DNA of 64,000 nucleotides from positions 558,001 through 622,000 of the forward strand of contig JAIWND010000011.1 of NCBI GenBank assembly GCA_025330725.1, given 5' to 3'. Under the pieces are notes generated by a model. It did no database searches. It was not told the origin of the DNA and was given only the letters and a program-made list of their open reading frames with translations. Shown one piece after another: positions 1-61,970 of the stretch (position 1 is its first letter; each line of letters begins with the position of its first letter). The position numbers and the translations under genes are program-made. Source of the DNA: Chlamydoabsidia padenii (taxonomy: Eukaryota; Mucoromycota; Mucoromycetes; Mucorales; Cunninghamellaceae).

Positions 1-728
1 CATCGCTGCCACCCAAATTCAGAAATAGACCACTCTGCATGACGGGTTACCAAGAAAAAAGTGCACATGATATTATACATTTAGTTCCAAATTGTTCTCT
101 CCCGTCCTAGACCCAAACCTTACATCTATCAAAATGATGTCCTTTATATCAAAACATACAAATTAAGTATAAAAAGTGCTTTATGTTTTATTTGTTTTGG
201 TTAAAAAAAAAAGAAGACTATTCTATTCCAAGTCCTATTGCCTATAAAGAAGAAGAGATTCGTTAGCATGATATTTGTTCAAACCCCGCCTCTAACCGAC
301 CCCAACTTACCAGTAAAGTAGCCGATTTCCATCATTCCCATTTGATTGACAGTAGTTAGACCCACCCATACAAACGAGATAGTTAGTTCGTCAATAGTGT
401 CATTGTTCATACCTTGAAGATCACATCCTTTGCCCACTATCATAAAGAGAAGGAAGGGATCTTGGTCAAGTGAAGAGTTCACTTGTGAGATCCAACCTAC
501 CCATACAGTGCCACTATCACTTTGAGCGAAAAAAAAAGAGGCCAGTGATTCATCAAGATTACCATTGTTCTTTTTGATCCGTTTAGGGAATGAAAAGGGA
601 AGGAGAATCAAAAAAAAAAAAAAAGGTTGACGGCATTTCGAAACCGGCAATTGATCCCTTGCTCCGCCGTTCCCAACCCCACAGTGGTCAGCAAAATAAG
701 AGGGCGACATGTGAATTAAAGCCATTCA
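1..728. other. Left-edge intergenic region, no supported gene
   Basis: AT-rich DNA upstream of the SCP2-like gene. The minus strand holds an open frame at 279-725, but it runs through poly-A/T tracts, shows no recognisable domain and has no splice context, so it is not called a gene. A TTCAAACCCCGCC element lies at 278-290, of the same type found upstream of many genes here. Its target gene, if any, may lie outside the window or be unannotated. Confidence 0.4.
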
Positions 729-740
729 TTCCAATCCCGC
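729..740 (+). promoter_or_regulatory. CCCGC/TTYAAA-type promoter element of the SCP2-like gene
   Basis: TTCCAATCCCGC about 100 bp before the SCP2 ATG. It is followed by a CACGTG E-box-like hexamer (747-752) and an A/T-rich TATA-like stretch near 770. It is one variant of the element recurring across the window. Confidence 0.4.
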
Positions 741-836
741 ATTGGCACGTGAATTCCCCCCTCCCTTCCTTTATTTAAAAACTCACCCCCCCTTTTTTCT
801 TCTTCTCCCTCTTGTTTACTTTATACAAACGAAATC

Positions 837-1336
837 ATGTCTGACATTATTGTACCTGGCTTTAAGGGCTCTGAACTCATTGCTGAATTGAACAAGGCTT
901 TTGAAGCTTATACTCCTGAAGAACGCGCCAAATTGATCAAACAAGTAAATGGTGTCTTCCAATTCGTCCTCAAGGCTAATGGAAAAGAAGAAATCTTCAC
1001 CGTGGATGTCAAGAAGGAAGGCAAAGTGGTCCGTGGTAAGGGTAACATCAAGCCTGATGCTGTGCTCACATTGTAAGTTAACGAGGTATATGGATTTTTT
1101 TTTTACTAACTCTTTCTTTTTTCTAGGAACGACGCTGACTTTGTTGCTTTGGCTGAAGGCAAACTCAACGGTCAAAAGGCTTACATGTCTGGTAAACTCA
1201 AGGTCAAGGGTCAAATCATGCTTGCTATGGTAAGGAAAAGAAGGAGACAATGAATGGGGTTGACTAACTTTTGTTTGTCTTGTAGAAATTGGATAACGTC
1301 TTCAAGTCTATCAAACCTGCTAATGCCAAACTCTAG
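837..1336 (+). CDS. SCP2: SCP2 sterol-carrier domain protein, peroxisomal
   Basis: Non-specific lipid-transfer (SCP2) domain protein of 129 residues, in three exons: 837-1072, 1127-1229 and 1286-1336. Phases join exactly. The first exon starts [11 protein letters not shown] and has the amphipathic helix typical of the fold; later come [10 protein letters not shown] and the [10 protein letters not shown] segment of the lipid-binding core. The protein ends NAKL, and its last three residues AKL form a C-terminal peroxisomal targeting signal (PTS1 variant). Free-standing fungal SCP2 proteins of this size are peroxisomal and linked to fatty-acid metabolism; that role is inferred from the family. 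Both introns contain ACTAAC branch sites. Identification is firm, the physiological ligand is not known. Confidence 0.93.
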
Positions 1337-1400
1337 ATATACGTGTAGTATAGCGCATGTTTGATACATCTGTGTATATAAATATATATATTAACAATGT

Positions 1401-1406
1401 AATAAA
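1401..1406 (+). terminator. Poly(A) signal of the SCP2-like gene
   Basis: AATAAA 65 bp after the stop codon, embedded in AT-rich DNA before the convergent Kelch gene. Confidence 0.55.
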
Positions 1407-1625
1407 ATGAATATCCATCACAATGGATATCCTTATACAAGTTTTACAAATGTGAATATAGATGATTTAATAATGTTTATTTCTTTACAATTAATGGGTT
1501 GGAAAGGGGAGGGGGGGTAAAGAGATATATAAAAAGTATGTATAGTATGTAACAAGGTATAATATGTATATGTATATGTATATGTAATAAATAGAGGGTG
1601 GGGGGGGGGCAAAGATACAATTATT

Positions 1626-2296: not shown

Positions 2297-2331
<35 letters not shown>

Positions 2332-3557: not shown

Positions 3558-3651
3558 GTAATGTAGTGGAGGAAAAAAAGAATAAATAGGAGAAAGAGAA
3601 AGAAAAAAAGGGGGTAAAGGGATCCAAAATCAATGGAGGAAACATCCATTT

Positions 3652-3664
3652 TTCAAATCCCGCG
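3652..3664 (+). promoter_or_regulatory. Recurrent element upstream of the Kelch gene
   Basis: TTCAAATCCCGCG, an exact copy of the core, 95 bp upstream of the Kelch ATG (gene on the minus strand). Confidence 0.5.
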
Positions 3665-4017: not shown

Positions 4018-4958
4018 ATGAAATTCATCCTTTTTTTATTATTGACTTTACAACTCACTACTCTTGCTCAATCACAGGTGACTGGTGTTCTTGGTGGTCA
4101 ATCAATGTCACCCGCTAATGGGACAGCAATAACGGGGGGTAGTCAAGCACCCACCACTGATCCGACCACACCAACAGCACCTTCCACACCTTCTACACCA
4201 ACCAAGGATCCTACCACCTCTATTCCAGTAGTGACGACACCATCAGCCTATACGTCTGATACATTCACACCTACAACACCAATAGATAATCCACTCCCAT
4301 CAGACGTCACTTCAAGTAATAATGGTGGAATGACTCCCTCTCCTACTAAGAACCATGATCGAACCAGTGCTAATACTGATGGCAACAACCAAGGTGGCCA
4401 ACCTACGACACCTCCTTCTTCCAATGGTGACGACAATACTAATAGCTCTCAACAGGATGCTGGATCCCCTCCTGGAGACAATACGGGCAAGATTGCAGGT
4501 GGAGTCGTTGGCGGTATTGGTAAGTCCCTTTACTATATAAGGTTAATTTGCATTCACACATTCCCTTTTTATTAAAAATCCTAGTGGCATTGGCACTGAT
4601 AGGTGGACTTTTAACATGGTTGAATCGACGGGGTGGATGTACAAGTCGAACGAAACCAAGGAACCAAGCAGCGTTTGAAGAATTTGCAATGAAGGATCCT
4701 GAACATGGTACAACAATGGGATATAATGACACGGCATCCCCATTCCAACGCCGTATGGCGCCTATGATTCCACAAACAACAGGCTATATGAATCTTGGTC
4801 ATGAAGACTTCTCTGATACCAGTACCGCGGTGCCCATGGATCCTTATGGTGGTGGTTATAAGACACAACAACAACCTGATCCTTATTATTTTGCACCACA
4901 ACAACCAAATCATCAAATGAAACCTGATACAATAGATCACAAACCTAATGAATTATAG
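4018..4958 (+). CDS. Ser/Thr/Pro-rich single-pass surface protein
   Basis: Two exons, 4018-4519 and 4585-4958, give 291 residues. A signal peptide (residues 1 to about 19, MKFILFLLLTLQLTTLAQS) leads into a roughly 130-residue mucin-like stretch dominated by Thr, Ser and Pro (TPTAPSTPSTPTKDPTTS). A transmembrane helix follows (GKIAGGVVGGIVALALIGG), then basic residues (WLNRRGG) and a tail rich in Gln/Pro. This architecture is common to fungal wall-stress sensors of the Wsc/Mid2 type, but there is no WSC cysteine domain, so only the class is claimed. The intron falls inside the transmembrane segment. Function is inferred from composition only. Confidence 0.75.
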
Positions 4959-5818: not shown

Positions 5819-6026
5819 CTTGAATAAGCGGAGGATGAAATATCAGTTAATATTATGTGGGAAGTATGTGGTTTCCTTTTCTTTTTCACTTACCGTTGGC
5901 CGAAGCCCCGTACCCATGCATTGTCAAATTATAACGATCTTATACAGGACTTTGGTCATCATAGTTCGCATTAATGAGATGAAACCTATAGGAAGCCACT
6001 CGGGCTAAAGCTTACTCTAATCGACG
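5813..6026 (-). repeat. Dispersed repeat, copy 1
   Basis: Read on the minus strand this matches 26292-26655 in order: a tcgattag...gtggcttcctatagg block, a tctcattaatgc block, a caatgcatggg block, an (a/t)gg(g)ct(t)tggccaacggtaagtg block, and cacataat...gatatttcatcctccgcttattc. It is at the 5' end of the unresolved minus-strand gene and includes its apparent exon 1 donor. Confidence 0.75.
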
Positions 6027-6051
6027 AAAATTCTACTCTTCCCACATAATA

Positions 6052-8947: not shown

Positions 8948-12040
<3,093 letters not shown>

Positions 12041-12334: not shown

Positions 12335-15300
12335 CTAATTGTCTTCAAATGGATATTCAAATGGTTCAAATGGAGCCGCTTCTTCTTCGTTTGTGTTTTC
12401 TTGACCATCAGCTATAATAGAATGATTAAATGTTAATTGTAATCAATCAATGATAGTTTCTTTTTTTTTTTTCTTTTTACCTGATGTTGGCGCACTTGGT
12501 TCGATCAATTCTTCTTCTTCATTTGGTCTTCGATCTTCCATCAAGACAATACCACTAACAGTACCCTTTTTAATAGGTACATAGCGACAATCGTCCTTGA
12601 ATGCTACCCGTTTCAATTGAGCAGGCACCACCCTAGCAAGATTTTCCAGTATATCATAGTTTTCTTCCTTCTTCTTTTTGCCTTTTCGTCGTTGATCGTC
12701 CTTGTTTGTGTCTTCTTCGTCTGCCTTGATTTCTTCATCCTTTGAGGGTTCTTTGTCCACGTCCATCATATCACCTTTTTCCTTTTCAGATTTCTTTGCT
12801 CTTGCCTTGGCCTTGGCTGTAGTAGACAATACGGCTGTGGCCACCTATATTTAAGAGAGAGAGAGAAAGAAAATGAATGAGATCATGTCATTTATCTATG
12901 ATTCGTTTATTTACCTTTTCAACCACTGCTGCAGAGGGAGGTTTCAGAGCAGGTGGATAGGAAAACAAGGAGGGTTTGGCGTTGGATATAAATTCAAACC
13001 TGGGGGTCTATTATCAACAACAAAAGAAGGGTCAATACATTGTCTATATTAAACCTTTTCTTTTCTTTCTTTTGATACCTGTAAGTTCTTGTTCAAACCA
13101 ATGATAGCAGTAGGGGTAAAGGATAAACTGAGCATGTGGGTCAAAGGATGCCAGTACCAGAATTGAGTAAATACAGCCATACCGACAATAGCAGGCATGT
13201 TTGCATGTCCTGAGCGAGACACCAATGAGATAGTTACATTGCGTCCACCAGCATCAATGATACCTTGAGCCAAAACAGCACCAAACTTGGACATGGGATC
13301 TTCGTGCTTGTCACTAATGATCTTTGCATAAAGCTTTCGGACACCAGCCACCTTGGGGTTTGTATTTTCTGTTTGTTGAATGAGGATCATTGCTTGAGAT
13401 ATCAAAGCACCTTGTCGGACAAAATCAACAGGATCCTTGGTCATTGGTTCCAAAAGATCCAAAGCATCCTAAACATCATCGTCAGGTGACAAAAAAAAAA
13501 AAAAGAGAGAGAGAGAGATTAGTATTAATCCATTATTAACCTCTTTTTCCCTTTCTTACCAAATAGCCAGTACCAGCACAGGAGATACCTAAAGCAAGAG
13601 TGGCACCATATCGGACATGAGGATTATAGCTTTCGGCCAAAAGTTGGACAATACGGGGTACTTGTTTAGGATTTTTCAAAAGGATAAAGCCCAAAGAGGT
13701 CACTGCAGCACGGCGGACATCATCGTTCACATCACTGACAGCAACATGGAGTAAGCGACGAATAGCCTTGTTGTTTCCTGTTCCACTGTAAGCCATGGCG
13801 ATCGTATAAATACCACCATATCGAAGAACAGGATCCTATTAAAAAAAAAAAAAAAGTCAGTTCTGTAGTATATTCATTTGTATCACTGTTCCTTACCTTG
13901 TCATCCAACAGTTGATCAATCAACACGTCAGCTTGTTCTTCTCTTCCGTACATGATGAGCGAGATACCAACAGCCAATCCACGGATAATCTTTTCGTGTT
14001 GAGTTTCATGTGCATATTGGAGCATTTCTTCGATGGCTTCTTCAGATGCAGTACCCAACTTGACGAGACCCATAGCAAGACCAGCAGATTCACCAGCAAC
14101 AGCGCTGTCGCTAAATAGCACAGTCTTCAGTTCGTTGTAGATATCTATCAGAATAAACAAATAAAAAAGCATTCAGTATGAGCACCTACGACATTATCGT
14201 TTCCATTTACCTTCGCTATCAGTGGCCATTCCTGCGACACCGAGACCAAGACCAGCACCATGTTGGATTACTTCTTTATCAGTATCTTTCAATGCCTTTT
14301 TCAAAAAGTTCAAGACATCTTGACCATGGTTTGCATTGATAAGACCAAGAGCATATAAAGACCCACCTTCAGAGTATTCGCTTCCACCTTGAGCACCTTC
14401 TTGTGGTAAGTAAGGTGCCAACAAATTCATTGATTGTGATAGTTGACCCTAGTGGTTATAAAAAAAAAAAGCAGGTGAGTCAGCCGTAACACTATTTTGT
14501 AACCACCTTTTATTTTTTATTTTTATTTTTATTTTTTTTTTTACCTTGTGAATGACACCAAGAGCCGCAGTGGCACTGAATTTAGTCCAATTCGTAGCTC
14601 TTGACAACCATTCGAGATTTTGTCGCAAGAATTCGTCACTGGTGGTACCTGCATGCATAAAGGCGTTGGCAAAAGTAAGAGCAGAGTGATAAATCGAGTT
14701 GCGAGATTCCAAAGCGCTCTATAATGAGAAAGATAAAATGACACAATTCGTTAGTTACAGTTTTTCTTGATCTTTTCATTATATTACCTTTGTGTTCTTC
14801 AAGATCATAAGGTCGGTATGGTTATTTCGGTAGAGGAATTCCAGATACAAGCGAATGGATTCTTCACCAGATAAGATAGATGCAATTTTCTTGAAGGGAT
14901 CATTATTGTTGGCCTATAATAAAGAGTTGGTACTATTTCATCCAATTACATTTATGATTAATTACTTACTGCAGAGTCTTCTTCAGTTTTTGCGGGCACT
15001 GGCAAGTTGTTGGACACCTTGGACAAAAAGTCTTGAGTAGCGATTTCTTCCAAGTCAAAAGCAATTTGATAGGCCATGAGCTAAACATTTTATTTTATAA
15101 AAGAGAGTTAATTGATTAATTCATATTCCTTTGTTTATACATCAAATGGTCTTTATTAGTTTACCTCTTCCTTTTTCTCGATCAATTCCTTGAGCATTTT
15201 GGCAGCAGACTGAGAATCATTCAAGTGAACGAGACATTGACTGATGGAAATATAATCAGGTTCTTGCAAGTTTTGATACAATTCCACCAAAAGTTGTAAC

Positions 15301-16275
15301 ACCTAAGAGTAAAACAAAAACGTCAAATTAGTTTATTGTTTATCACCAAGATCTTTTAATCCCACTTGCCTGATTTCTGAATTCCAATTGTTGCACCAAA
15401 GTCATCGATACTTCCAAGACATAAGGTAAGAGTTTTGCCGAGTCGCCCTTTTCAACCATAGCCTTCACCACATCCAATCGTCTAGATTCCAAAGCGATAC
15501 CAATGGCTTGTTCATATTCTTCATCTTGAGCACATCTTTGGAACATACGTTCGACAATATCTTGAAGTCTGGCATCAATGTCTTCAGTCATACCTTCCGA
15601 ACTGGATTCTTGTTGTCGAAGATAGATATATTTGTCGATACATTTGGCTATAACAAAGAAGGAGGTCAGAGGAAACATCAAGAGTTTTATTATTATCAAT
15701 GTTTTGTACTTACAAATAATGGTTTCGACGTATTCAGACTTTTCAGAGAGGTCGAACCGTTTCCCAGCACCAAGGGCAAAAGTCAAAGAGTCATCTAATT
15801 CACCCAAGTAGTAGTAAACCTATGAGGTGGACGAGTATATAACCAAAAAAAAAAAAAAAAAGTTGGTATACAGATCTTGTCATCAGGATTGTCCATTAAA
15901 AAGATTGCACTTTACCTTGGAGGCTACCAAAGCAGCTAATTCGATATCAGGGAATTCTGCATCTTCATACAAGATTTCACTACGTAATAAGACAAAAAGG
16001 TTAGTATCATCGAGTATGTCATCCATCCATCACTTGTTCTTACATTTTCGCCACCGAGTCTGATATTTCCGCCCAGAATTGGTTGACGAGAGTATTAAGT
16101 TGTTGTAAAGCATATACTTTCAATTCAGGTTGTTGTTCATCGAGTAAAGCAACCACTCCACCTAATATCACAAACACCAAAAAAAAAAAAAAAAAGATCA
16201 TCAAGTCAGTGACCATTCTTATCCCATTCTTGTTCTATTGTTTTTTAACTTACTTGCTGAAGTAAGGGCAGCCAT
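12335..16275 (-). CDS. RPN2: 26S proteasome regulatory subunit Rpn2 (PSMD1)
   Basis: About 16 exons and roughly 935 residues. The largest base subunit of the 19S particle, it scaffolds ubiquitin receptors and Rpn1/Rpn13. The start MAALTSAS sits on a very short 22-nt first exon (16254-16275). An N-terminal helical region leads into the proteasome/cyclosome (PC) repeat toroid, with typical Gly/Ala-rich units such as [39 protein letters not shown] and [16 protein letters not shown] Lys/Glu-rich linker near 12650-12790 is followed by the conserved C-terminal domain with RYVPIKKG. The protein ends FEYPFEDN. Intron positions are numerous, but exon joins give continuous family-like sequence. Confidence 0.95.
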
Positions 16276-16474: not shown

Positions 16475-17329
16475 AGGGGGCGGATGATGAAATCTTGTCT
16501 TTTCCTCTCCTTCCACCTTTTTTAATGAACAGCCACACCAGGATCAAGCACAACATTATAATACTGGTCGGTACCAACAATCCAGCTTGCTTTATTGTTA
16601 CCAAGTGCTGACCCCCCTGGGATTGCAATATAGTGTCCGTTATTTAAAAAGGTAAAAAACTAACCTACTAAACGGTTTTTAGTTTGGATTAACCTCCCAC
16701 ATACGATAATCAGTCATCCATTTATCGAACAACAGCACAAGCAACCCTTGGGATATATCAACCTGAATAGACTTGCACCAACCACAGCAAATAAGATCGG
16801 GAACGTGGTTGAAGTAAAACAGGGATCAGGATCTAGGCATATAATCAGCGGACTTGGCAAGAAGAATTACATGGAATCTTTGGAAGCGGTGACTTGGAAT
16901 AATATACGACCTTTGGATATAGTATTTAGCTTTAGTCAATAGTATTGTTATAGGTTATTGTTGTTGTTTCAAAATAAATATATCTCCTGCTACGGAATTC
17001 CGCTGTATGTGATGATTCTAGTTTGTTTACTAATAAATGTATTGGTTTTATTCATGTACGGCATAAACAGTATATATAAAAGGACGAATCGGCGTGAGGG
17101 GGGGGGACAACATCCACTCATTATACTTCTTGCAATGTCAATCTTTATACATGAGGAGGTGCACTAAGCGGGGTTTCATTTGAAAATCCTGCATTAGATA
17201 ACTAGTTTTCAACATGGTCCTTCTTGCATGATTCATCCTAAGGGTAAAATTGAGTGGACAAGAATGGGTTTATAAAAAATTGTGTATGTAGATGAGTTCA
17301 CTTTGTTTTTTTGGCCACCTCTGTCGCTT
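16276..17329. other. Gene-poor stretch with an orphan open frame
   Basis: It contains a TTCAGTTCCCGCC-like element upstream of RPN2 (minus-strand reading of 16368-16380), a long poly-T tract, and an open frame on the plus strand (16682-16942) running LVWINLPHTIISH to IRPLDIVFSFSQ. That frame has no in-frame ATG near its start and no family I recognise; it could be a gene fragment. Further plus-strand DNA to 17329 shows no supported gene. Confidence 0.4.
16411..16467. repeat. 57-nt poly(T) tract
   Basis: Longest homopolymer of the window, followed by eight A residues. It could be a poly-A tail scar of an inserted retrocopy on the minus strand, or simple slippage. Confidence 0.9.
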
Positions 17330-21395: not shown

Positions 21396-21500
21396 GACCT
21401 AGTCCAACGGTGAAGTTGAAATAAAAAAGAAAGCCAGACACTTGCGCATAATACTAACGGTCATTTCATTCTCCGCATATGGAGCCTAAAATTCAAGTTA
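21396..21500 (+). repeat. Dispersed repeat, partial diverged copy 3
   Basis: Matches the second half of copies 1 and 2: ggacctagtccaacggtgaag, cataatactaacggtcatttcattctccgcatatg and aaaattcaagttac. The 5' half is missing. It lies between the broken FCP1-like copy and the 3' end of the Arf GEF gene. Confidence 0.6.
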
Positions 21501-25784: not shown

Positions 25785-26168
25785 TTAAGCTACATAACGT
25801 TTACGCATGGTACGATATTTCTTTAGGTAATACATCATTTCTAGTTCTATTGATAACGCCTATCAGTTAACCAGTCATTGTTACATGTATCCTATTTACC
25901 TTTACAAACGTATTCACCTAGAGCAATGCACTTTTTAATTTCGTCTTCATCCTTCAGATCCTTCTTTTTCATAAAGGCGGCTTTAAGTTTGGGTCTAAAA
26001 AAGTCATTGTACCCAGCAGGATATTCACGACCTAGATAAGACAACTAAAAACATCCATAAGCAAAAAGTCATTTAGTAAACTGGTTTATAACAAACTATC
26101 AAGTCTTTTTATTTCATGTTTACCTGTTTGTATAAAGCAATCACTTGAGGTCGTAAAGCTTGTGACAT
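25785..26168 (-). CDS. ETFRF1: LYR-motif protein, ETF regulatory factor 1 (LYRM5) homologue
   Basis: Three exons, 26168-26124, 26044-25900 and 25846-25785, encode 83 residues. The pattern [14 protein letters not shown], then [16 protein letters not shown], then [20 protein letters not shown], matches the small mitochondrial Complex1_LYR protein that removes FAD from electron transfer flavoprotein, and length is normal for the family. As in other members of this branch, the LYR tripeptide is not strict. It belongs in the mitochondrial matrix and would restrain fatty-acid and amino-acid electron input. Its introns contain canonical donors and acceptors. Confidence 0.92.
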
Positions 26169-41737: not shown

Positions 41738-43042
41738 ATGGTCAAGTGTACTCATCAAGGCTGTGGAAAAGAATTCGACGAAGAAACCAATGTTGAAAAT
41801 GGTAAGTGGTGAAAACGATTACAATGTGAACGAAAACTGAATGTAACACAATCGCGCTGTTATTCTACATTGGATGAATCTTTTTAGGTTGTCAATTCCA
41901 TTCTGGTGCACCAGTCTTCCATGAAGGTAACGATAATAGATATAAATTGACTTTCTTAGGTCCAATCTAATGGAAATATACTTTGGGTAGGTTTGAAAGG
42001 GTGGTCGTGCTGCAAGAAACGGGTGGATGACTTTGACGAATTCTTACAGCTTCCTGGATGTACATTTGGCAAACACACAGTCGAAAAGCAACAACAACAA
42101 CAACAACAACCAGTAGTGAAGGAAAGTGCATCAGTCGTGGCTAGTGTAAAGGATGGCGTAGAAGTTTATGGTCAACAAACGGTGGAATCTGTCAAGGAAA
42201 CAGTGGAACCTGTCAAGGTGGCTGCTGAACAACAACAACAAGAAGAAGATGAAGACGATGATGAATCCATCCCTGTCAAGGTTGGTACTACCTGTCGTCG
42301 TCGTGGATGTGGAGTGACGTTTACTGATGATGCTACAAACCGTCAAGGAGGTCCTGAATCTGTCTGTCATTATCATCCTGGTGCGCCCATCTTCCATGAA
42401 GGATCTAAAGGTTGGAGCTGTTGTCCTCGAAAAGTCCTCGAATTTGACGAATTCCTCAAGATCAAGGGGTGCAAAGAACGCCAAGGTCATTTGTTTGTAG
42501 GCAGCAAGAAGGATGGTCAACAACAAGAAGAATTGGTGGATTGTCGCTTGGATTGGTATCAAACACAGACTAATGTTATTCTCAGTATCTTTGCCAAGAA
42601 CAAGCAAGATACTCAAGTCAAATTCTCTAGTCGCGCTATAGAAGTCGATGTCAAGATGAAGGATAACAAGCGATACAAGAAACGTATACCACTCTTCCAT
42701 GTAAGTATTACTGCTTTATGATAATTGTAAAAAAAAAAAGAAAGAAAAGAAAACTCATTGGCCTTTATATATAGTTAATTGATTGTGACGCATCCAAGTA
42801 TACTGCCTTATCCACCAAGGTTGAAATTAACTTGAAAAAGACAAATGGGATGTCATGGGCTGCATTGGAACCAACGAATGATGTAAAGTCATGGACTACT
42901 TTCGGTGTAACAGGCACAGGTGGTACTGTTGGCTCAAAAGAGGTAGGACCAATGTTATCATCCGATCAAGATGATACTCACACTTTTTATTTTATTACAG
43001 ATGCACTACAGTGGTGACTCTCCATTACACATGAAGGATTAG
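41738..43042 (+). CDS. CHORDC1: CHORD-CS domain cochaperone
   Basis: Five exons, 41738-41801, 41888-41926, 41991-42700, 42775-42942 and 43001-43042, give 340 residues in exact phase. Two CHORD zinc domains: the first is CTHQGCGKEFDEE, CQFHSGAPVFHEG, GWSCCKKRVDDFDEFLQLPGC; the second is CRRRGCGVTFTDD, CHYHPGAPIFHEGSKGWSCC. Both keep the Cys3-His pattern. Poly-Gln and acidic spacers separate them. The C-terminal CS (p23-like) domain is DWYQTQTNVILSIFAKNK to WAALEPTN. The architecture equals animal CHORDC1/melusin. These proteins bind Hsp90 and Sgt1. The first CHORD is spread over three exons. Confidence 0.95.
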
Positions 43043-43445: not shown

Positions 43446-43574
43446 ATGCGTAATCGTGGCAAGACAAATAAAACCATTGATATCCAGCTTTATGAAGAAA
43501 AGTTTTATTTCCCTGGTGAAGTAATAAAAGGTAAAATAAACTCGTTAATGATTAGGATAAAGAAAACAACAAAG

Positions 43575-43607
<33 letters not shown>

Positions 43608-45761
43608 TACTGCTAACCTATTTTTATTTTGTGCTATTATTGTAGGTGTTGTTATCGTACATCCAAAAAGTGCCACCAAGACCAACCATATCATTGTACG
43701 GTTCTCTGGTCAGGTGTTTATATCTGTCAAGGACAAGGAAACCATCAATCTCTTCTCGAAAACCAAGATACTACCCATCTCCACGGAAGATAATAAATCT
43801 TCTCATGTATTGGACGCCAAGCAACACTCGTTTCCTTTTGAATTTGTCGTCCCTAATGAACTTCCAAGTACTATGGAGGTAAGTTAATAAACGAAAAAGG
43901 TCATGGATTTATACTGATATATTAACAACACGTATGAAAACCCTAGTTCGGTAAAAGAAAAGCCAGGGTCAAGTATATTTTGACGGCAGTACACGATCGA
44001 CCTATGGTGCCTGAATCTCTTTGTGCAAAAGTATCTTATAGTGTACCTATTCTAGAACTAGTGGATGTTACCAAGATGCCTTTTATCAAGCCTCAAGAAA
44101 AGTCAATGGATATTTTATTGCCTGGTGCAAAATATAACAAGAAATGTCAAACGACAGGATCTATGCCAAGATTTGGATATACACGGGGTAATAATTTAAA
44201 AGATGAAATGGAGGAGGAGGGAGAACTAAAGCAGGTTTTTATTTTTTCCTAACATAGGCGAAATCTTACCTTTGAAGGTGATTATCAATCATTTTGAATC
44301 CTTCTCACAATCAAATGCCTTGGAGGTGGAACTCGTACGTACTGTGGAAATCCGTACTCAAAGGTAAACAAACATTTGCATCAATTATATTACTCTCCTT
44401 GACTCTGATATTCATTATATTATGATAGAAACACAGCAACTACTGAAGATATCCTCAAGGTAGTGAAACAGGACATCAAGATCATTGGTCCTTACAACTT
44501 TTCTCAATCGACAACATGCCAACTTATGATTCCTACCTCAACACCACCCACCATTCGATTCAAGGATAAAACCTTACATATACATTACAAGGTACGGGTT
44601 AAAGTGCGACTGGGGAAGACTGGAAATGCAACACCTTCGACCCTTGAAATGCCGTTTGTAGTAGGAACATGGCCTCGGGCGGATATTCCTATTGACGATG
44701 ACGACGATGAAGAACTGATACAACTATTAGGGGAAACCATGCTCAGTGACGACGACGAAGATGATGACGATGGATCTTACGATGTAGACAAAAGGGAAAC
44801 GAACTTGTCATTATCTTCACACCAAAAACGATATTCTGTATTATCATCATCATCGGCGACAACCTTGACTATGCCAAAGAACAACAATGTCGTGGGTCGA
44901 TCGGATTCAACACAATCAAGAGTATCTCACAAGTCTATGGGGTCAGTCTCTTCTTGGCGATCAAGTCAATCATTGGAAAACAACAATATATCTCGCACCA
45001 CATCATCCACACCAGGGGATCCGTACCAACAACAACAACAACAACAAATGTATCCAGGTTTTGGTCGAAACAGCACATCAAGCGATATGATATACCCATC
45101 AGCCAATTACTTGAACCGGTCATCATCCACACCAGATTTACTTGCCAATCCGACTTTACCATATTATGGACAATATCCTGGAGGAACACCTTATTTACAA
45201 CATCAAAATACTTATCCACTATACGAACACAACCGCCAATCTTTATATGACGACAGAGGAACACCATCGTACTATCAACAAGGCATCTCACCTTATCCTA
45301 CACAACAACAACAACAACAACAACATATACCATACAACAACAACAATCTGGATCGAGCATCAACGTCACCTTCATCATCCATATCATCTTACTCGCCGTA
45401 CCAACATCATAGGATGGGATCTGAAGAATATCGACCTATGGGCATTCCATCACCTCAACAACAAGCTTTACCTCCTCCACCACTTTTGATAGACGATGTA
45501 CCTACCAAAGTACTGCAACCCATGTCAACCACCACTTCTTCTCATTCGACTATCAATCGATTCCGAACGGATGGGAACAACTCGGCCCGTAGACACTGCA
45601 ATGACACTGCGACACAAAACATGGCGGTAATCTCTGATGATGATGATGATGATGATGATGATTCGGATGATGGGGACTTGTTTGTCATTATCGAACGAAA
45701 GAAGAAACTAGCGGAAAAGGAAATGCGACAGAAACGAACGATGTATACGGTGACTGAATAA
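43446..45761 (+). CDS. Alpha-arrestin (ART-type ubiquitin-ligase adaptor)
   Basis: Five exons, 43446-43530, 43646-43878, 43947-44187, 44258-44363 and 44429-45761, encode 665 residues. The N-terminal arrestin fold has IDIQLYEEKFYFPGEVIKG (first strand motif) and SFPFEFVVPNELPST. The C-terminal arrestin part has ILPLKVIINHFESFSQSNAL and IHYKVRVKVRLGKTG. After about residue 300 comes a disordered tail with Asp runs (about 310-336 and 625), poly-Gln and Ser/Thr clusters. It includes a TLPYYGQY segment fitting the L/P-P-x-Y motif bound by WW domains. Fungal members recruit Rsp5 to transporters for endocytosis. Poly-A (about 30 nt) fills intron 1. Confidence 0.9.
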
Positions 45762-52472: not shown

Positions 52473-53238
52473 CTAAACCGAGGGAGGAATATCATCATCC
52501 GTCAATCCAATAGACCTTAAATGATCCATACAGTTAAACCGATCGACCTTGATTGGATCACCATGACGGATTTGAGATAACCCGGTATTACCATGATGGC
52601 CACGCCGTAGCCGATCACGACTACCATCATATTGACAATCCCGACTCCACCATAAACAGAGCGATCGAAGAGGTCCACCATGGGTAACAATCAGGATGTG
52701 TTGATAATTGGCCGTGGTGGCTTCCTTGACGAGATCGTTATAGGTGTCCAACACCCGAGTTGTGAATTCCTGTTCCGTTTCACCGCCATGAGTCTTGACA
52801 CAGACCTTTTGACCCAACGCAAACAAATGACTAATGGGCTGATTCGATAGATCGCCAAAACTTCGTTCGCGTAGACCGGATAGGTAGGTGATGGGTGTGT
52901 CTTGATGATGAATGTCCAGAATGGCTTGAGCGGTCTTGGTGAGAAAAAGACTTTGACTTGTTAATAATGTTTCTTTTGTTTTATAAAGAGTTATTGTTTT
53001 TACCTGTTTACATCTAGTCAAGTCGCTACAATAGACCTTGTCAAAGTGTTCGTTGGCAAGGCGTTTACCTACGAGAGCTGCTTGACGATGGCCCAGTTCA
53101 TTCAAGACGGTATCTATCAACAAGGTGAGTATGTACAAGCTAATCCCAGCTCTTTCTATATTTACCTGTTTGGCCCTGAAGAATACGTTGCTTATTGGCG
53201 TCAGTGTTTCCATGTCTAATCAATGTAATGAGAAGCAT
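52473..53238 (-). CDS. Histidine phosphatase (phosphoglycerate mutase-like)
   Basis: Three exons, 53238-53166, 53113-53004 and 52934-52473, encode 214 residues. The N-terminal catalytic RHG motif is LITLIRHGNTDANKQ (His8-Gly9 type), followed by QRILQGQTDTVLNELGHRQA and the phosphate-pocket Arg in YCSDLTRCKQTAQAIL. GLRERSFGDL supplies the family Glu, and ILIVTHGGPLRSL has the second catalytic His. Branch-1 histidine phosphatases include phosphoglycerate mutases and fructose-2,6- or sedoheptulose-bisphosphatases; the substrate cannot be assigned. Start at 53238 is preferred because the ATG just precedes the RHG strand. Confidence 0.9.
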
Positions 53239-53420: not shown

Positions 53421-53996
53421 ATGGCCACCAGTCTTTTTAAAAGACCACTTGATTTGGTCTATTTTATCTACTTCTTTACCCATATTCCTGTCACACTTAT
53501 GATTGACTTTCAAATCTTCTACCCTCCTCATCTTGTACCTCAAGCTCTGAAGGATGCCCTTATAATGTACATTCGCGATTACAAGGATCCATTTATAGGG
53601 GCCAATCCTCCTCTGTATTGGTTCATGTCCTTCATGTACTCTGAACTCTTATTCCAGTTTATCTTCTTTTTTATTGCTTGCTATGGTCTTTGGAAAGGTA
53701 ATAATAATACAACAACAACAAAATAGGACTCACCTCCCCTCTCTTTCTTTTATATTATAGATTCTACTCGTTGCCGCCTTGGTCTCTGTATTTATGGCTC
53801 TCATGTCGCCACCACTGTATTCGCCAGTCTGTTTGAAGTATTACTTAATCCTGCACACCATTTGACATCCACTGAACGATATACCTTGTCGAGCTTTTAC
53901 CTCCCGTATTTTATCATTCCTGTGGTTATGGTGGTGGACTCTTACTGCAAACTCTCCAAACTAATTGCAAATCATCACATCAAAAAAGTAAACTAG
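53421..53996 (+). CDS. TMEM97: TMEM97/sigma-2-receptor-like EXPERA membrane protein
   Basis: Two exons, 53421-53697 and 53761-53996, give 170 residues, the usual size. Four membrane helices are visible: LVYFIYFFTHIPVTLMIDFQ, PLYWFMSFMYSELLFQFIFF, GSHVATTVFASLFEVLL and FYLPYFIIPVVMVVDSYCKL. The EXPERA domain pattern is clear, with paired acidic residues (Asp in the first helix region, Glu in MYSELLF). The C-terminal HHIKKVN is a dilysine-like ER-retention signal. Relatives bind sterols and regulate NPC1 or act like sterol isomerase-fold proteins; the ligand here is inferred. Confidence 0.92.
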
Positions 53997-54096: not shown

Positions 54097-55155
54097 TCAA
54101 GTGGATGGATCAGGGCTCACACGGAGGACAATTTTACCCACAGTGCGATGTGATTCCAACATTTCATGTGCCTTGTACCCATCCTTCAAATCAAACACGT
54201 TACCATCCGGCACATAACTTTTGATCAAACCCTGTTCCATCCACGGGGCAACATGAGAGGCAAATTTGGTATTATCAAAACCCATAATGAAGCCATAACG
54301 TCGAGGAGCAAACAGTTTTCGGTAAAACACGGTGGTCACTATAGACAATAATTTAAACATACCCAAAGGAGAGTCTCCAGAATTTTCCACAGGACCTACA
54401 GCAGAAATAAAGATCCCAGTCTTCTTCTTGACAAGATGGAGGCATTTGGTATAATAGTATTCACCACCAATGAGATCCAGCACCACATCATAACTATCAG
54501 GCTCTTCTTGATCCAGCGCCTTTGGATCAGTGTAATCCACCACTCGGTCAGCACCAAACGTATCGATCACCAATGACTTGTTCTTTCCACTGCATACACC
54601 CACCACCTGATTGGCACCACGTGCTTTGGCAATCTGGATAGCATATGTTCCCACACCTCCAGAGGCGCCGATCACCAACACCTTTTGTATGGGTTCCGGG
54701 TGACTGACGAGGAGACCTTGAATTGCCGTCAAGGTCGCTATTCCCATTGACGCCGCCGAGACAAAATCAATACCAGCAGGTATTTTTGCAATGGCTTGAC
54801 TTGTATTTGCCACCAGGTATTCAGCATAGGAGCCATGAGACACACCAAGGGGGAGACTACCAAACACCCGATCGTTCACATTGAATTCTGTCACTTTGCT
54901 ACCTTTAGCCACCACCACACCAGAGTAATCACCGCCTAGAATAGAGTTCTTTTTGAAAATGAAGCTGCCCATGTATCCTTGACGTATTTTGGATTCAATA
55001 GGATTGACACCGGCGGCTACCACTTTGATCAAGATGTCCTTGGGATGACGTAGTTGAGGCATAGGTACGGTTTTGTAGTTGAGGGCTTGAGAAGCAGGTC
55101 CAAAGGATTCCATAACGAGAGCATGAATATTATCAGGTATATCTTGTTGAGACAT
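54097..55155 (-). CDS. MDR-superfamily quinone oxidoreductase-like protein
   Basis: Intronless, 352 residues. GroES-like N-terminal domain (ILIKVVAAGVNPIESKIRQG and LGGDYSGVVV) followed by a Rossmann domain with VLVIGASGGVGTYAIQIAKA (glycine motif GASGGVG, 163-169). The structural/catalytic zinc ligands of alcohol dehydrogenases are absent (position after GGDYSG has no Cys/His pair), so it belongs with the zinc-independent quinone reductases such as reticulon-4-interacting protein 1 and yeast Ast/YhdH-like proteins. NADPH is the expected cofactor. The substrate is unknown. A TTTCAAATTCCGC element lies about 85 bp upstream. Confidence 0.93.
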   Translation of the reverse strand: MSQQDIPDNIHALVMESFGPASQALNYKTVPMPQLRHPKDILIKVVAAGVNPIESKIRQGYMGSFIFKKNSILGGDYSGVVVAKGSKVTEFNVNDRVFGSLPLGVSHGSYAEYLVANTSQAIAKIPAGIDFVSAASMGIATLTAIQGLLVSHPEPIQKVLVIGASGGVGTYAIQIAKARGANQVVGVCSGKNKSLVIDTFGADRVVDYTDPKALDQEEPDSYDVVLDLIGGEYYYTKCLHLVKKKTGIFISAVGPVENSGDSPLGMFKLLSIVTTVFYRKLFAPRRYGFIMGFDNTKFASHVAPWMEQGLIKSYVPDGNVFDLKDGYKAHEMLESHRTVGKIVLRVSPDPST

Positions 55156-55342: not shown

Positions 55343-55354
55343 ATGTCAACATGA
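55343..55354 (+). promoter_or_regulatory. Four-codon uORF overlapping the LMBRD2-like start
   Basis: ATG TCA ACA TGA: its stop overlaps the main ATG (55351) as ATGA. Such an arrangement can permit reinitiation or set leaky scanning. Confidence 0.45.
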
Positions 55355-58346
55355 CTGAACAAAGCAATTGGCTTCCGCTTGTGTTCAGTATTCTAATCCT
55401 TATTATTATTGTTTCCACGTTGGTGTCCTTTTATGGAAACTTCAAGTCTCAACCTTGGTATGTATCTCTGGTTTGCATCGTTGGTTGGTTCTTTCCGTTC
55501 TGGATTGTGCTCTTGCTACCTTTGGATATGGCATCGGTAATTACACGGAGAATAAAAAAAAATAAAGCATGTTACTGACTTTTTATTAATGTAGACTCTT
55601 TACGAAGATTGTGATGTGAATTGTCGACGACCATTAACGTATGTCTCCCAATCCTTCCTTTACGTTGCGTGGCGAACCATCTACTGGACATCCTTTTGTT
55701 TGACCTGGTAAGTATATAAATAGACTCGGTATTTTGGTACTTGCAATGTTTTATTTTTAATATTCTTGTTACTTTAGGATGTTTATCCCAATGATGCAAG
55801 CATATGTTAACACGGGTGAATTCCAAGCCGTACGCCGTCTAATTTCGGCGGCAAAAGTCAATTTCCGATTTTATATGATCTATGTGGTAATTGGTATTCT
55901 TGGTCTGTTTTACCTGGTTTTCAAAGGTGGTATTACAACAAGGTAAAACAAGGTGGGGGAAAAAAAATGATGATGGGACTAACTTGTCCTGTTTATAAAT
56001 AGGATGAAACTACAAGGATTTGTGATGGCAATGGCGAACAGTTGGGGATTATTCTTGGTGATCATGTTAATGGGGTATGGATTGGTAGCGGTGCCTCGAA
56101 AACTATGGTATGCCAGTAATAGTCAACATCACTTGAATGAACTCTATAAAAAAGCATCACGAATTAAGGAAGAATGTATGGATAGCGAACTGGAATTCAA
56201 TGAACTAGCAAAGGTAATAAACTGCAATACGAGAAATCATCTTTTATATAACATGTTACTTATATATATATATATATATATAGACTATCAACACTATTTC
56301 TCATCGACCTATTCGATCAGATCCCAATTTACGACTGATGGTGGACAATACTGTAAAACGATTCCCATTTGTCAAACATCCTATCTACGCTGATCGTGAT
56401 CATTCATCAGGTATTCCTCAAGTATTGACTGAAGAATATATTATCACTTTAAATCGGAACATGATCCTCGCAGCTAGAATGAAGGACAGGAAATCGGCGT
56501 AAGTATGGAGAATCATGGATGATAATGTAATTACTCATGTATGTATGTATGTATAGATTATGGCAAAACCTTTTATCTGAAGCTTACTACTTGCAAGACA
56601 TTGAAACTAACAAAGGCAACTTGGATAGGTAAAATATACTTCAGCTTGTTTGATCTCTTTATCCTTTTTTATTTTTTATATATATTAACTTGGCTTGTCT
56701 CTTTCGAATAGACGCTTCCACTCCAACCTGCGACCGCTTCAGGAGGTTACATTCTGGACGGATATGAAAACACGAATAGGTAAAGTTGTATCTAAAATGG
56801 TTATTTGAAATTCAGCAACTAATTTGGGTAAATTCGATAAAGAATGGTGGTGGGTGATTATGTTTAGATCTATTATCTACCGTGGTTTATCTGTCATCCT
56901 TGGTGTAGCCAGCATCTGTATCTTATGGTCCGAACTTGTCTTTAATATTAAATCACCTCTGATTTCTATTGTTGGTCTTACTATCAATGCTTGTGGTTTG
57001 AATTATGCAGCTGTAGAGGTATTGTACAGTACTATAGAAGATTCTTACAGATATTAACTTTCTTCTCTATCTCTCTCTCTAGGTGTTGTCATTCCTGACC
57101 CTAACATGGATGTGTATTTGTGTGTATACATCCCTTTTTAAAGTGCGATTCTTCAACTTGTACTTGTTAATCCCTCATCATCATACGGATCCCAACAGTC
57201 TACTATGGTTTACCGGATACATGTGCAAAATGATGCAAGTACTATATATATATATATTGTCTGTCAATAAACCCATTCACTAATCCTTCTTTTTCGTTTC
57301 ACTTAGGGCACCATTATGCTATAATTATATAAACCTGATTGGACCCACTGAAACTAGGAACAATCAAGATCATACAGAAACCGTATTCAGTCAGGTAAAA
57401 ATACACAAACTAGTATATAGTGGGTATAATGACTAAATTACATGTTATACTTTTAGTTTATGGGCAAAGCAGATCTTGTGCCATTTTTAGGGTCTACCTT
57501 TATGGATTGGTTCCCTGTGGTTGTTTTGATTCCGGCCTTTGCAGCTATCTTCCATATTCCATCATTGAAATGGTTCGGTGATAATAACGACGGGGATCTT
57601 GAAGATGGAGGAAGTTTGAATATTAACGTGGCTGAGGGAAAAGATCTTGTTTTGGAAGGTAAAAGCAAATACACTAACTAGGATGGATGGCTAATTTTCC
57701 CTCTTTTGTGGAATAGAACGACGATTATTGGAAAGAAGCATGGATCATGACAATGGACCTCCTCTTGGCTTGCTGGATCGTGCAAAAAGTATCTTTGGCG
57801 TAAGTCCGACTCTCCTCTTTATAAATAGTTGATAACTAACGCAAAAGCGACTAGACATCCTTTTCTAGATCCACTCGACCACGACTTGATGATGTCACCT
57901 CAAGTAATACTAGTCAGCATTCTATCGGACCACTCTCCTCTTCTTTACGACAGGAACGCGATAAACGCCTCGATGCAATTCTCGGAAAACAGCCCACGAA
58001 TTCAACAGATGCCTCTTCCTCCTCTAGACCAACGGCACAAGATAATCCTCTAAATGTCAAATTACAATCTTTTGGTGATAATGTCAAATCAAGATTTGGA
58101 CAACTCTTTGGCGGTAACGACAGCGAACCCATGCCGGTCAACCTATCATCAACAACACGAATACCATCACCGCCACCACCACCGCCACCAAATAAAGATA
58201 TCACTCGATCGGGGCGTGTATTTGGCACAGCAGCACCAAGATCTCCATCTCCTAATCTATTCCAAAAGGCAACGACGGCTCGGGGAAATCAAGGAACCAC
58301 CATCTCTCCGTTTGCCAGGTTTGATGATCATCCATCATCCACTTGA
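55351..58346 (+). CDS. LMBRD2: LMBR1-domain membrane protein, LMBRD2 homologue
   Basis: Thirteen exons give 749 residues, with every junction phase-checked: 55351-55536, 55595-55707, 55778-55942, 56003-56213, 56284-56498, 56557-56628, 56712-56779, 56816-57018, 57083-57234, 57307-57394, 57457-57658, 57717-57799 and 57855-58346. About nine helices, starting NWLPLVFSILILIIIVSTLV, with LMBR1 landmarks GFVMAMANSWGLFLVIMLMG and a DKEWWWVIMFRSIIYRGLSV segment in mid-protein. The ninth intron is of GC-AG type (gcaagt). The C-terminal ~165 residues are Ser/Pro-rich and cytosolic. Animal LMBRD2 modulates beta-adrenoceptor signalling; the fungal role is unknown. Confidence 0.92.
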
Positions 58347-60163: not shown

Positions 60164-60175
60164 GTTCAATCCCCG
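60164..60175 (+). promoter_or_regulatory. Recurrent element upstream of the BXI1-like gene
   Basis: TTCAATCCCCGC, 75-86 bp before the ATG at 60250. Confidence 0.4.
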
Positions 60176-60249
60176 CTCGGTCGTAAAAAAGAGAGCTTTT
60201 ATTTTTTTATTTTTTTCTCTTCCTTTTCTTTTACCTAACAAAAAGAAAA

Positions 60250-61197
60250 ATGTCCTACCAGAATTATACACAACCTCCACCTGCTTACGATGCTGAAGCT
60301 CGTCAACCTTTAATGGGTGATGATGAAACTGATGATATCTTCAAGGTCGCCAACAGCAGTATTGATGTTCGAATGGGTAAAGTATCTGAAAACAAGTGTT
60401 TGATGTTTTGCTCACTCTTCTTTTTATAATATCTAGCCTTTGTACGAAAAGTGTATTCTATACTTTCCGTTCAATTATTAAGCACCATAGTATTGTCTTC
60501 TGTTTACATGTATAATGCTTCTGTCAAATCTTGGGTACAAACAAAGTAAGTTGAAGCTTGGCATTCGTAGATAGGGGAGACCTTTGTTAACTAATCTTTT
60601 TCTTCTCTATAGTCCTTGGTTACTTTTGGTCTCTGGTATTGGCTCTTTGGGTGTTTTGTTTGCACTCATGTGGAAAGCTCGCTCGACTCCTTTGAATTAT
60701 TACCTCTTGGCACTTTTCACCTTGTTGGAAGGACACTTGGTGGGTACTATTGGTAAGAAGGGATACAAAAGTGTACAAAAAAAAAAGTGTGTTTGATACT
60801 CACCTTGCTATTTATTCTTAAAGTGACATTCTATGACCAAACGATCGTCCTCCAGGCATTGATTATCACCTTTGGCGTATTTATCGGACTGACATTATTC
60901 ACGATCCAATCGAAATGGGACTTTTCTGGAATGGCACCTTTCCTCTTTGCTGGTTTATGTGTCTTGATGTTGGCGGGTATTGTCCAGATCTTTATCCCAT
61001 TCTCCGAAGGTTTCCAATTAGCTTTGGCCATTGGTGGTGTGGTGATCTTTAGCTGTTATATCATCCTTGACACTTATCTGATCTTCAACCGTTACTCTCC
61101 TGAAGACTATATCATGGCTTCTGTACAACTTTATATGGACTTTATCAACTTGTTTATTCGTCTCTTACAAGTCTTGAATGCCATGCAAAGAGATTAA
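60250..61197 (+). CDS. BXI1: Bax inhibitor-1/lifeguard (TMBIM) family protein
   Basis: Four exons, 60250-60376, 60437-60545, 60613-60752 and 60824-61197, encode 249 residues. The N-terminal cytosolic segment TQPPPAYDAEARQPLMG contains a PPAY motif, as in yeast Bxi1 (PPPPY) and human lifeguard proteins. Seven helices follow. The UPF0005 pattern is clear: FVRKVYSILSVQLLSTIVLS, LEGHLVGT, then AIGGVVIFSCYIILDTYLIF and DYIMASVQLYMDFINLFIRL with the two membrane Asp residues of the calcium-leak pore. It resides in ER or vacuole membranes and affects the unfolded-protein response and calcium. The third intron is near the SET-like LLALFTLLEG helix. Confidence 0.95.
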
Positions 61198-61477
61198 AAC
61201 CAGTGGATGCTTCCCCTATAGTTAGTAGTATATATTAGTTTAGTTATGATATCCCCCCCCCTTAGTATTTTTTTAAAGTCCAATAAACGTCATCCAGGTT
61301 TTATAAACTATTATGTGTCTTTTGAATGATAAAAAGTTGATATGTACCCACTACCCTGCACATAGCAACATCCAGGCAGTGCATGCATCCTACACCAAGT
61401 CAAATTGTAAAAAGATTTTATTTCATCATCTATTTTAAAAATTATACTATATTATAAAGACAATCTACCTAGATAGT

Positions 61478-61770
61478 CTATAAACGAGCGATCAAGTCAG
61501 TCGATTTGATGTCGTTTGTTTTGAATTGATAGCAAACCATCGGAGGCAGAAGTAATCCTGGCATACAAGGTCGCCGCCATGATCTACCTGTATGCATGCC
61601 TCGAAACCTATCCATAAAAAGTCAAGGTGTCAGTCATCAATCATTTCCTTTTTTTTTTCCCTTACCAATGTGCCAATGAAGTGGCAAAACCAACACCAAG
61701 AAGAATATCAATCACAGGTGCGCACACCAATAATAGGTACAGAATTCAAGATGTCAGTGATAAGATCCAT
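61478..61770 (-). pseudogene. Small membrane-like gene split by a one-base frame difference
   Basis: Exons 61770-61666 and 61607-61478 are bounded by good splice sites. The ATG frame opens MDLITDILNSVPIIGVRT and soon stops. The downstream frame that fits the splice phase reads PVIDILLGVGFATSLAHW, then FRGMHTGRSWRRPCMPGL, and ends DLIARL. The two halves join if one base near 61707-61722 is extra or two are missing. A TTTCAAATCCCGC element lies about 190 bp upstream, so the locus is probably transcribed. Either a recent frameshift, a sequencing error, or frameshifting is at work. No family recognised. Confidence 0.45.
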
Positions 61771-61957
61771 GTAGACGATTGGTAAGTGGTGACTTGAACA
61801 AAGAGACAGCTAGAAGGAAGTCTTAGTGGATTATCGTTTATCAAATAAAATTGGGTATCTACACAAATGGATCTTCACCAAAATCATGGGTTTTAGACCA
61901 TCAAGCGAGCAGAGAGAGTAAGATAATAGGAAAAGAGTGCCCCCTTTTCATACAAAT

Positions 61958-61970
61958 TTCAAATCCCGCA
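61958..61970 (+). promoter_or_regulatory. Recurrent element upstream of the small frame-split gene
   Basis: TTTCAAATCCCGC, perfect core, in the 330-bp gap between the small gene and the aldehyde dehydrogenase 3' end; only the small gene starts nearby. Confidence 0.45.

Follow-up and report, generated by a model that had tools for sequence, protein, structure and literature searches.

The window, the whole 64,000-nucleotide stretch of Chlamydoabsidia padenii DNA that was analysed, contains repeated copies of a 12-letter motif, WTTYAAAYCCCGMY. Judging from the sequence, this motif is probably (probability about 0.6) the site of one putative abundant DNA-binding protein that acts as a general regulatory factor (GRF) in this Mucorales fungus. 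In the best reading, the putative factor would work like Reb1/Abf1, organising both promoters and nucleosomes. More tentatively, at somewhat less than even odds, the candidate factor would be a dominant and hitherto undescribed one, with a site at about half or more of promoters and in much other intergenic DNA. Its sites would follow a spacing grammar, in which two of them either share one open gap (<~45 bp) or stand at least ~190 bp apart, a nucleosome's worth.

Identity and abundance of the motif

The first-pass annotation reported a recurring short element; this observation was confirmed and proved stronger than first supposed. With at most one mismatch, TTYAAATCCCGC matched 20 times in the window, compared with 0.67 expected and a maximum of 4 in 100 shuffles. 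Genome-wide word counts covered the 34.2-Mb genome, with the reversed-letter word as the control: exact TTYAAATCCCGC was present in 2,530 copies (1,277 + 1,253) and the control in none (0 + 0). Motif words topped the list of over-represented words in 264 kb. The refined motif was WTTYAAAYCCCGMY, of whose 66 exact copies in 314 kb 59 were intergenic. A PWM detected 197 sites above 14 bits, versus a mean of 5.1 and a maximum of 9 with 10 column-permuted matrices. Overlapping PWM matches within 8 bp were merged, and loci L001–L008 and L029–L034 were left out of the counts. All 12 places first given as examples were recovered in the PWM list, some shifted by 1–2 bases. Copies in the window are given below with strand, location and score.

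278..289, +: motif copy, distal, 553 bp upstream; 21.3 bits
729..740, +: motif copy, 102 bp upstream of predicted gene 837-1336 (+), presumably SCP2-like; 13.1 bits
3652..3663, +: exact motif between divergent genes, 358 bp upstream; 19.8 bits
3947..3958, +: motif, 65 bp upstream of gene 4018-4958 (+); 18.8 bits
5574..5585, -: motif TTTAAACCCCGA, distal, 560 bp; 17.5 bits
6052..6063, -: motif, 82 bp upstream of ALAD (6140, +); 18.7 bits
12232..12243, +: motif, 198 bp upstream of predicted HECT-domain gene 8948-12040 (-); 17.9 bits
16370..16381, -: motif, 101 bp upstream of predicted proteasome/cyclosome-repeat gene 12335-16275 (-); 16.0 bits
19300..19311, +: exact motif, distal, 681 bp; 18.8 bits
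26263..26274, +: exact motif, 101 bp upstream of gene 25785-26168 (-); 21.1 bits
28606..28617, +: motif, 97 bp upstream of gene 27113-28515 (-); 15.5 bits
32025..32036, -: motif, distal, 954 bp; 20.0 bits
32921..32932, -: motif, no predicted ATG nearby; 21.6 bits
33722..33733, -: motif, 104 bp upstream of predicted gene 32980-33624 (-); 17.3 bits
34346..34357, -: motif, 206 bp upstream of gene 34558-35267 (+); 19.2 bits
35301..35312, -: motif, 92 bp upstream of gene 35399-37672 (+), Pil1 domain; 15.7 bits
38916..38927, +: motif, tail-to-tail intergenic; 21.3 bits
40398..40409, +: motif, 98 bp upstream of gene 39167-40306 (-); 16.7 bits
41629..41640, -: motif, 103 bp upstream of CHORD-domain gene 41738-43017 (+); 16.4 bits
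43148..43159, -: motif TTTAAACCCCGC, 292 bp upstream of gene 43446-45761 (+); 18.6 bits
53304..53315, -: motif, first member of a pair, divergent promoter of genes 52473-53238 (-) and 53421-53996 (+); 20.3 bits
53326..53337, -: motif, second member of the pair, 22 bp from the 53304 copy; 17.3 bits
55239..55250, +: motif, divergent promoter, 90 bp to gene 54097-55155 (-) and 106 bp to gene 55351-58346 (+); 19.3 bits
58522..58533, -: motif, 354-bp tail-to-tail region, roughly halfway from one stop codon to the other; 18.6 bits
60165..60176, +: motif, 79 bp upstream of Bax1-I gene 60250-61197 (+); 18.1 bits
61958..61969, +: exact motif, tail-to-tail region, 134 bp from a stop codon; 21.3 bits

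In the ALAD comparison, the nearest named relative was Cunninghamella blakesleeana (Mucorales). Among the open-licence papers listed in literature searches, none described the motif. Among the matches listed in a search with the literal letters, no title dealt with a promoter motif and two dealt with fungal genetic tools. The accessible part of PMC11258239 contained no such motif, and the mould terms were absent from PMC10985990.

Position relative to genes

All distances to ATGs rest on start codons from ab initio HMM gene models made without transcripts; genes shorter than 80 aa were dropped, leaving 140 of 166 predicted genes. The first-pass annotation had named a flat distance distribution as contrary to its view; the observed distribution was sharply peaked (314 kb): density reached 12.6 sites/kb at 80–100 bp upstream versus ~1.5/kb far out, with the peak at 80–120 bp 5' of predicted ATGs and centred at ~95 bp. 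A site was present 40–160 bp upstream of 77 of the 140 genes and missing there from 63. Random intergenic anchors gave a mean of 29 and a maximum of 46 (300 trials), so part of the 77 reflects the general intergenic density. Relative to the gene, 43 sites had the same and 43 the opposite orientation. The site-bearing genes were unrelated in function (ALAD, proteasome repeat, CHORD, COPI-associated, Pam17, G-alpha and aldehyde dehydrogenase). Pfam searches on a chosen subset found a family in the longest exons of 12 of 20 site-bearing genes, in 9 of 10 genes without a site and in 7 of 10 ORFs. The idea of a general element, independent of orientation in its placement, at unrelated genes was supported.

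The density of sites above 10 bits was 0.17 per kb in coding DNA, 2.83 in divergent, 2.19 in tandem and 1.50 in tail-to-tail intergenic regions. At least one site occurred in 33/34 head-to-head, 54/69 tandem and 15/35 tail-to-tail regions. The window itself held 51 such sites, 41 of them intergenic, 5 coding and 5 intronic. That copies lie mostly 60–190 bp before an ATG was true of 8 of the 12 examples first given (3947, 6052, 26263, 35301, 40398, 53304 with 53326, 55239 and 60165); of the others, 12232 lay at 198 bp and 3652 at 358 bp, and 32921 and 61958 were near no predicted start. However, only 18 of the 41 intergenic window sites fell within this range, which makes "most" generous for the full set.

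At promoters, a T-rich stretch separated the motif from the ATG. Tail-to-tail sites (n = 16) lacked this pyrimidine tract (skew 0.058, versus 0.086 in random tail-to-tail DNA), indicating that the motif is more than a promoter signal; hidden promoters as the cause of these copies were thus unsupported. The 87 distal sites outside tail-to-tail regions showed a slight pyrimidine excess (0.17 versus 0.103, p = 0.0005), and given this excess some of them may serve unannotated starts.

Spacing between copies

In the main spacing test, the zones of a ~240-bp repeat, with 15 of the 274 local sites, were masked. Pairs 45–150 bp apart were depleted (9 versus 33.0 expected; 0/1000 shuffles as low) and pairs 190–260 bp apart were enriched (30 versus 17.8; 3/1000 shuffles as high). 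Non-promoter sites alone showed 5 pairs versus 16.2 expected at 45–150 bp and 20 versus 9.3 at 190–260 bp. With the repeat unmasked, the bias was stable at four score cut-offs and held against a null preserving distances to the ATG. An excess at 340–420 bp was moderate (25 versus 16.1; 19/1000 shuffles) and did not reach significance when non-promoter sites were taken alone (12 versus 8.9; 173/1000). A dip at 260–340 bp was not significant either (12 versus 18.2; 78/1000). Close pairs, 9–45 bp apart, numbered 21 versus 12.8 expected; this excess was absent at the 14-bit cut-off with the repeat unmasked (6 versus 6.7). Genome-wide, same-orientation AAATCCCG pairs numbered 25 at 50–110 bp, 21 at 110–170 bp, 111 at 200–260 bp and 37 at 265–325 bp, and the backwards controls 0 except for 2 at 110–170 bp.

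The spacing could be merely the period of the ~240-bp repeat, a tandem and dispersed element that would also have spread the motif. It has 988 core copies (≤2 mismatches), often in tandem, and several local copies carry the motif ~65–73 bp 5' of the core. By eye, it made up 31–33 of the 82 same-orientation 200–260 bp matches listed with letters (111 counted, 100 of them listed). We nevertheless consider this explanation unlikely: the few local sites in repeat zones were masked and the exclusion survived, although very decayed copies may remain. Convergent pairs, an arrangement not produced by head-to-tail copies, displayed the same bias (12 at 50–110 bp and 41 at 200–260 bp genome-wide), and flanks beyond ~15 bp had no sequence common to sites. 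The repeat showed no consensus fold of a structured RNA on either strand in 12 copies. The spacing rule, the tail-to-tail copies and the motif-bearing repeat were all absent from the first-pass annotation.

Exclusion at 45–150 bp together with the preference for 200–260 bp suggests a nucleosome-scale organiser. A putative GRF would maintain a nucleosome-depleted region immediately 5' of the transcription start, along the T-rich stretch from motif to ATG, and each bound site would form a barrier abutted by the next nucleosome. With such barriers, two sites could not stand a fraction of a nucleosome apart. Non-promoter copies would organise or insulate intergenic chromatin.

Candidate factors

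E2F/DP alone, freed from pRb control in this lineage, might be the general factor and read a shifted site. The genome has six E2F/DP domain matches, CCCGC is common to the motif and TTTCCCGC, and the available text of PMC4862756 describes zygomycetes as having kept E2F and lost pRb. That source also gives the E2F consensus as GCGSSAAA, which the motif does not resemble, with T or C at position 6 and A as the last base in 36% of sites. The motif does not contain the E2F word TTTSSCGC, which was hardly enriched in intergenic DNA, at ~0.075 versus ~0.058 per kb (20 copies in 314 kb, 8 intergenic and 12 genic). We regard this candidate as slightly less probable than the repeat.

The upstream position and the lack of orientation bias would also suit an ordinary upstream activating site, such as an operator serving a single pathway or stress regulon. 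Such an operator is quite improbable, as the 140 genes come with 239 intergenic sites scoring above 10 bits and the site-bearing genes are functionally unrelated.

A CDE/CHR-type element bound by an E2F/DP–LIN54 (DREAM/MuvB) complex, the likeness first proposed, is more improbable still. In such elements, the distance from CDE to CHR is 4 nt; in 314 kb, gaps of N4, N3 and N2 occurred 0, 3 and 29 times. The six E2F/DP matches and the CCCGC half, reminiscent of E2F, would fit, and a hybrid E2F/LIN-54 motif is known from the worm C. elegans (PMC3093354). TTYAAA is compatible with the TTYRAA that LIN54 accepts according to the accessible part of PMC4974476; yet LIN54 would take either purine, and the fourth base of the CHR-like half was almost always A (66 copies of TTYAAAYCCCGM, the TTYAAA variant, versus 6 of TTYGAAYCCCGM, the TTYGAA variant, in 314 kb). 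Sites at about half of the genes are no cell-cycle set. TCR/CXC (PF03638) gave no match by the method that found E2F, and neither did a human LIN54 CXC query (E ≤ 1) or LIN9 DIRP, all run without a positive-control genome, so these results do not amount to absence.

The remaining proposal, a TFIIIC B-box or ETC-like site, can practically be dismissed: TTCAAATCC is similar to the pol III B-box consensus, GGTTCRANTCC, but the flanking G was depleted (5% at position -1), the C was replaced by T in 22% of sites, the full B-box had 1 copy in 314 kb, and Rfam scans of the window and a further 250 kb detected one tRNA gene only.

Words for DREAM, E2F, Reb1, MBF (ACGCGT) and the B-box were counted in 314 kb, and none accounts for the motif.

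Comparison with known systems

If the dominant-factor reading is true, the genome sequence would encode part of its own nucleosome map, decoded by one factor. A counterpart in early-diverging fungi would show the solution recurring with a different site. It would also make Mucorales promoters easier to annotate and provide a nucleosome ruler encoded in the genome.

The motif shares the TTCAAATCC core letters with the pol III B-box, unlike which it has no GG flank, invariant C or tRNA context. Like CDE/CHR and the worm hybrid motif of DREAM/DRM, it has a GC-rich half beside TTTRAA. Unlike in CDE/CHR, however, its half-sites are 2 nt apart instead of 4 and the fourth base of TTYAAA is fixed as A; unlike those of DREAM/DRM, its targets are general rather than cell-cycle genes, and the LIN54/LIN9 searches, lacking a positive-control genome, were empty. 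Metazoan housekeeping elements (DRE, Ohler motif 1/M1BP, NRF1) likewise place a single site type at many housekeeping promoters, but the motif differs in its many non-promoter copies, its sequence and its clade.

The closest likeness in function would be with yeast GRFs, of which Rap1 is a further one of this type. The Reb1 site is TTACCCG, a different word from the motif; it had 17 copies in 314 kb, 4 of them intergenic. The part of PMC2897762 available ties yeast Abf1, Reb1 and Cbf1 sites to nucleosome-free regions and maps swaps over twelve species, with the GRF repertoire replaced between yeast lineages. Like the sites of Reb1, Abf1 and Cbf1, the motif occurs at many promoters. It differs from that of Reb1 in sequence, and from yeast GRF sites in that the spacing exclusion is read in the DNA itself and the host belongs to the Mucorales, not the Ascomycota.

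A short motif upstream of predicted genes

The recurrence of TTYAAATCCCGC, which the first-pass annotation put at more than 20 copies, typically 60–190 bp ahead of an ATG, and read as a general promoter element, was borne out in the window, where matches with at most one mismatch numbered 20 against 0.67 expected. Across the genome (34.2 Mb, 95 contigs), the exact pattern occurred 1,277 times in forward and 1,253 times in reverse orientation, and the control, the pattern reversed without complementing, did not occur (0 + 0). In 314 kb, comprising the window and 250 kb from elsewhere in the same genome, 66 exact copies were found, against one for four scrambled 12-letter controls together. The top-ranked over-represented 8- to 11-mers in 264 kb were parts of the motif. 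The consensus in the 264 kb was WTTYAAAYCCCGMY; since positions further out had no clear preference, the motif is a short site.

Genes were called on the 314 kb with a purpose-built ab initio gene finder, which predicted 166 genes and 528 introns; counts are based on the 140 genes that encode 80 aa or more. Predicted introns in the 264-kb run had a median length of 70 bp, most commonly with the ends GTAAGT (170 of 447) and TAG (396 of 447). DNA close to the predicted ATG was rich in T, which reached 48%, and G fell as low as 7%.

The motif is concentrated upstream of predicted start codons. Plain consensus copies in the 314 kb were intergenic in 59 cases and genic in seven. A position-weight matrix (PWM) found 284 sites above 10 bits: 29 coding (0.17/kb), 16 in introns (0.43/kb), 86 in divergent (2.83/kb), 122 in tandem (2.19/kb) and 27 in tail-to-tail intergenic regions (1.50/kb), classed by the orientation of the flanking predicted genes, and four at edges, the intergenic counts being favoured because the matrix was trained on intergenic sites. 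Ten column-permuted matrices at this cut-off gave a mean of 38.1 sites (maximum 78). At least one site was present in 33/34 divergent, 54/69 tandem and 15/35 tail-to-tail regions. The claimed upstream placement was confirmed by a density of 12.6/kb at 80–100 bp before the predicted ATG and 9.7/kb at 100–120 bp, against approximately 1.5/kb far out. The claimed orientation independence is supported by a count of 43 versus 43. A site lay 40–160 bp upstream of 77 of the 140 genes (random intergenic anchors: mean 29, maximum 46, 300 trials).

Among sampled exons of site-bearing genes, 12 of 20 had a family match: proteasome repeats, NIF phosphatase, CHORD, histidine phosphatase, Bax1-I, aldehyde dehydrogenase, COPI-associated, Pam17, DEAD helicase, FAS1-like dehydratase region, G-alpha and SASA esterase, in agreement with the earlier claim of unrelated genes. 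The ALAD gene, whose protein was 89% identical to one of Cunninghamella blakesleeana (other mucoralean matches ranked lower, a 93% match higher), had the motif 82 bp upstream. Site-less genes were also functionally mixed (9/10 sampled with a family), so in this small sample there was no functional split between the two sets.

Other words were seen alongside. ACGCGT, an MBF-like word, had three of its five copies in the 314 kb 40–160 bp upstream of a predicted ATG, too few to judge. The weaker, motif-related TTTCATYMTCCGC may be a second site type. Window features:
5828–5839, 16480–16491, 21465–21476 and 26618–26629: TTTCATYMTCCGC
36638–36975: 18-bp tandem repeat GAACAGCAAAGACAGCAA, 18.6 copies, within the open frame of a Pil1-domain gene

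A dispersed repeat carrying the motif

A sequence-diverged dispersed repeat (unit approximately 205 bp, spaced approximately 240 bp in tandem) had the core GATGCTAATGATTAAAGTGG, found 988 times genome-wide at up to two mismatches (control: 0). Several local copies carried the motif at their 5' end, approximately 65–73 bp before the core. Copies, by locus of the same genome:
L016, 7879–8329
L027, 4778–5193
L023, 9034–9515

The repeat had no conserved RNA fold, no Rfam match and, by eye, no conserved reading frame; no copies were found within the 64-kb window. Repeat zones held 15 of 274 motif sites, and tail-to-tail DNA still had 1.18 sites/kb after masking. Five exact motif copies, two belonging to the repeat, occurred in 1.8 kb without a predicted gene (L016, 6301–8139).

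Spacing between sites

Site pairs 45–150 bp apart in one intergenic region were avoided (9 observed versus 36.8 expected). This was seen at cut-offs of 8 (20 versus 52.1), 10 (9 versus 37.3), 12 (7 versus 30.2) and 14 bits (2 versus 18.0), and persisted against a null that kept every site's distance to its ATG. With the repeat masked, 9 pairs at 45–150 bp were observed versus 33.0 expected (0/1000 shuffles as low), and pairs were in excess at 190–260 bp (30 versus 17.8; 3/1000) and 340–420 bp (25 versus 16.1; 19/1000); the count at 260–340 bp (12 versus 18.2) was not significant. Non-promoter sites alone, likewise masked, gave 5 versus 16.2 at 45–150 bp, 20 versus 9.3 at 190–260 bp and a non-significant excess at 340–420 bp (12 versus 8.9).

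Genome-wide, same-orientation exact AAATCCCG pairs numbered, start to start, 25 at 50–110 bp, 21 at 110–170 bp, 111 at 200–260 bp and 37 at 265–325 bp (backwards controls: 0, save two at 110–170 bp). The 200–260 bp bin was the one of the four sifted by eye for repeat copies; 31–33 of the 82 pairs judged were the approximately 240-bp repeat, hence at least 49 lie outside it. Convergent pairs, an arrangement that head-to-tail repeats do not produce, numbered 12 at 50–110 bp versus 41 at 200–260 bp (24 and 82 rows, the pattern being palindromic and hence on both strands). These distances suggest that the 45–150 bp exclusion may reflect a nucleosome.

Comparison with known regulatory systems

Binding by E2F only is a live alternative because zygomycetes retained E2F and lost pRb, according to the available part of PMC4862756. 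Six E2F/DP winged-helix domain matches were found in the genome, three of 62–63 residues and three of 73–76:
Contigs C7, C56, C19, C67, C1 and C8 of this genome (G000; loci L029–L034)
The E2F word TTTSSCGC was barely enriched in intergenic DNA of the 314 kb. The CDE/CHR (DREAM) identity proposed in the first-pass annotation was not upheld: at the base equivalent to R of the LIN54 site, TTYRAA in the available text of PMC4974476, A outnumbered G 66 to 6, and CDE-N4-CHR was absent from the 314 kb. Searches run with no positive-control genome gave no match for LIN54, by Pfam or by the human domain, nor for LIN9. The pol III B-box, also proposed, was not supported, its word having failed in the 314-kb count. 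The Reb1 word, tried as an identity, failed in the 314-kb count as well.

On the reading we favour, the motif acts as the sites of general regulatory factors do; its word differs from that of Reb1. The DNA arrangement itself shows the placement upstream of genes and the spacing; a protein would bind the motif and would affect nucleosomes and transcription. The fungal motif resembles the hybrid E2F/LIN-54 motif described in the worm (PMC3093354, available part). The closest working analogy is with the general regulatory factors of yeasts, which lineages have exchanged, as the accessible portion of PMC2897762 describes.
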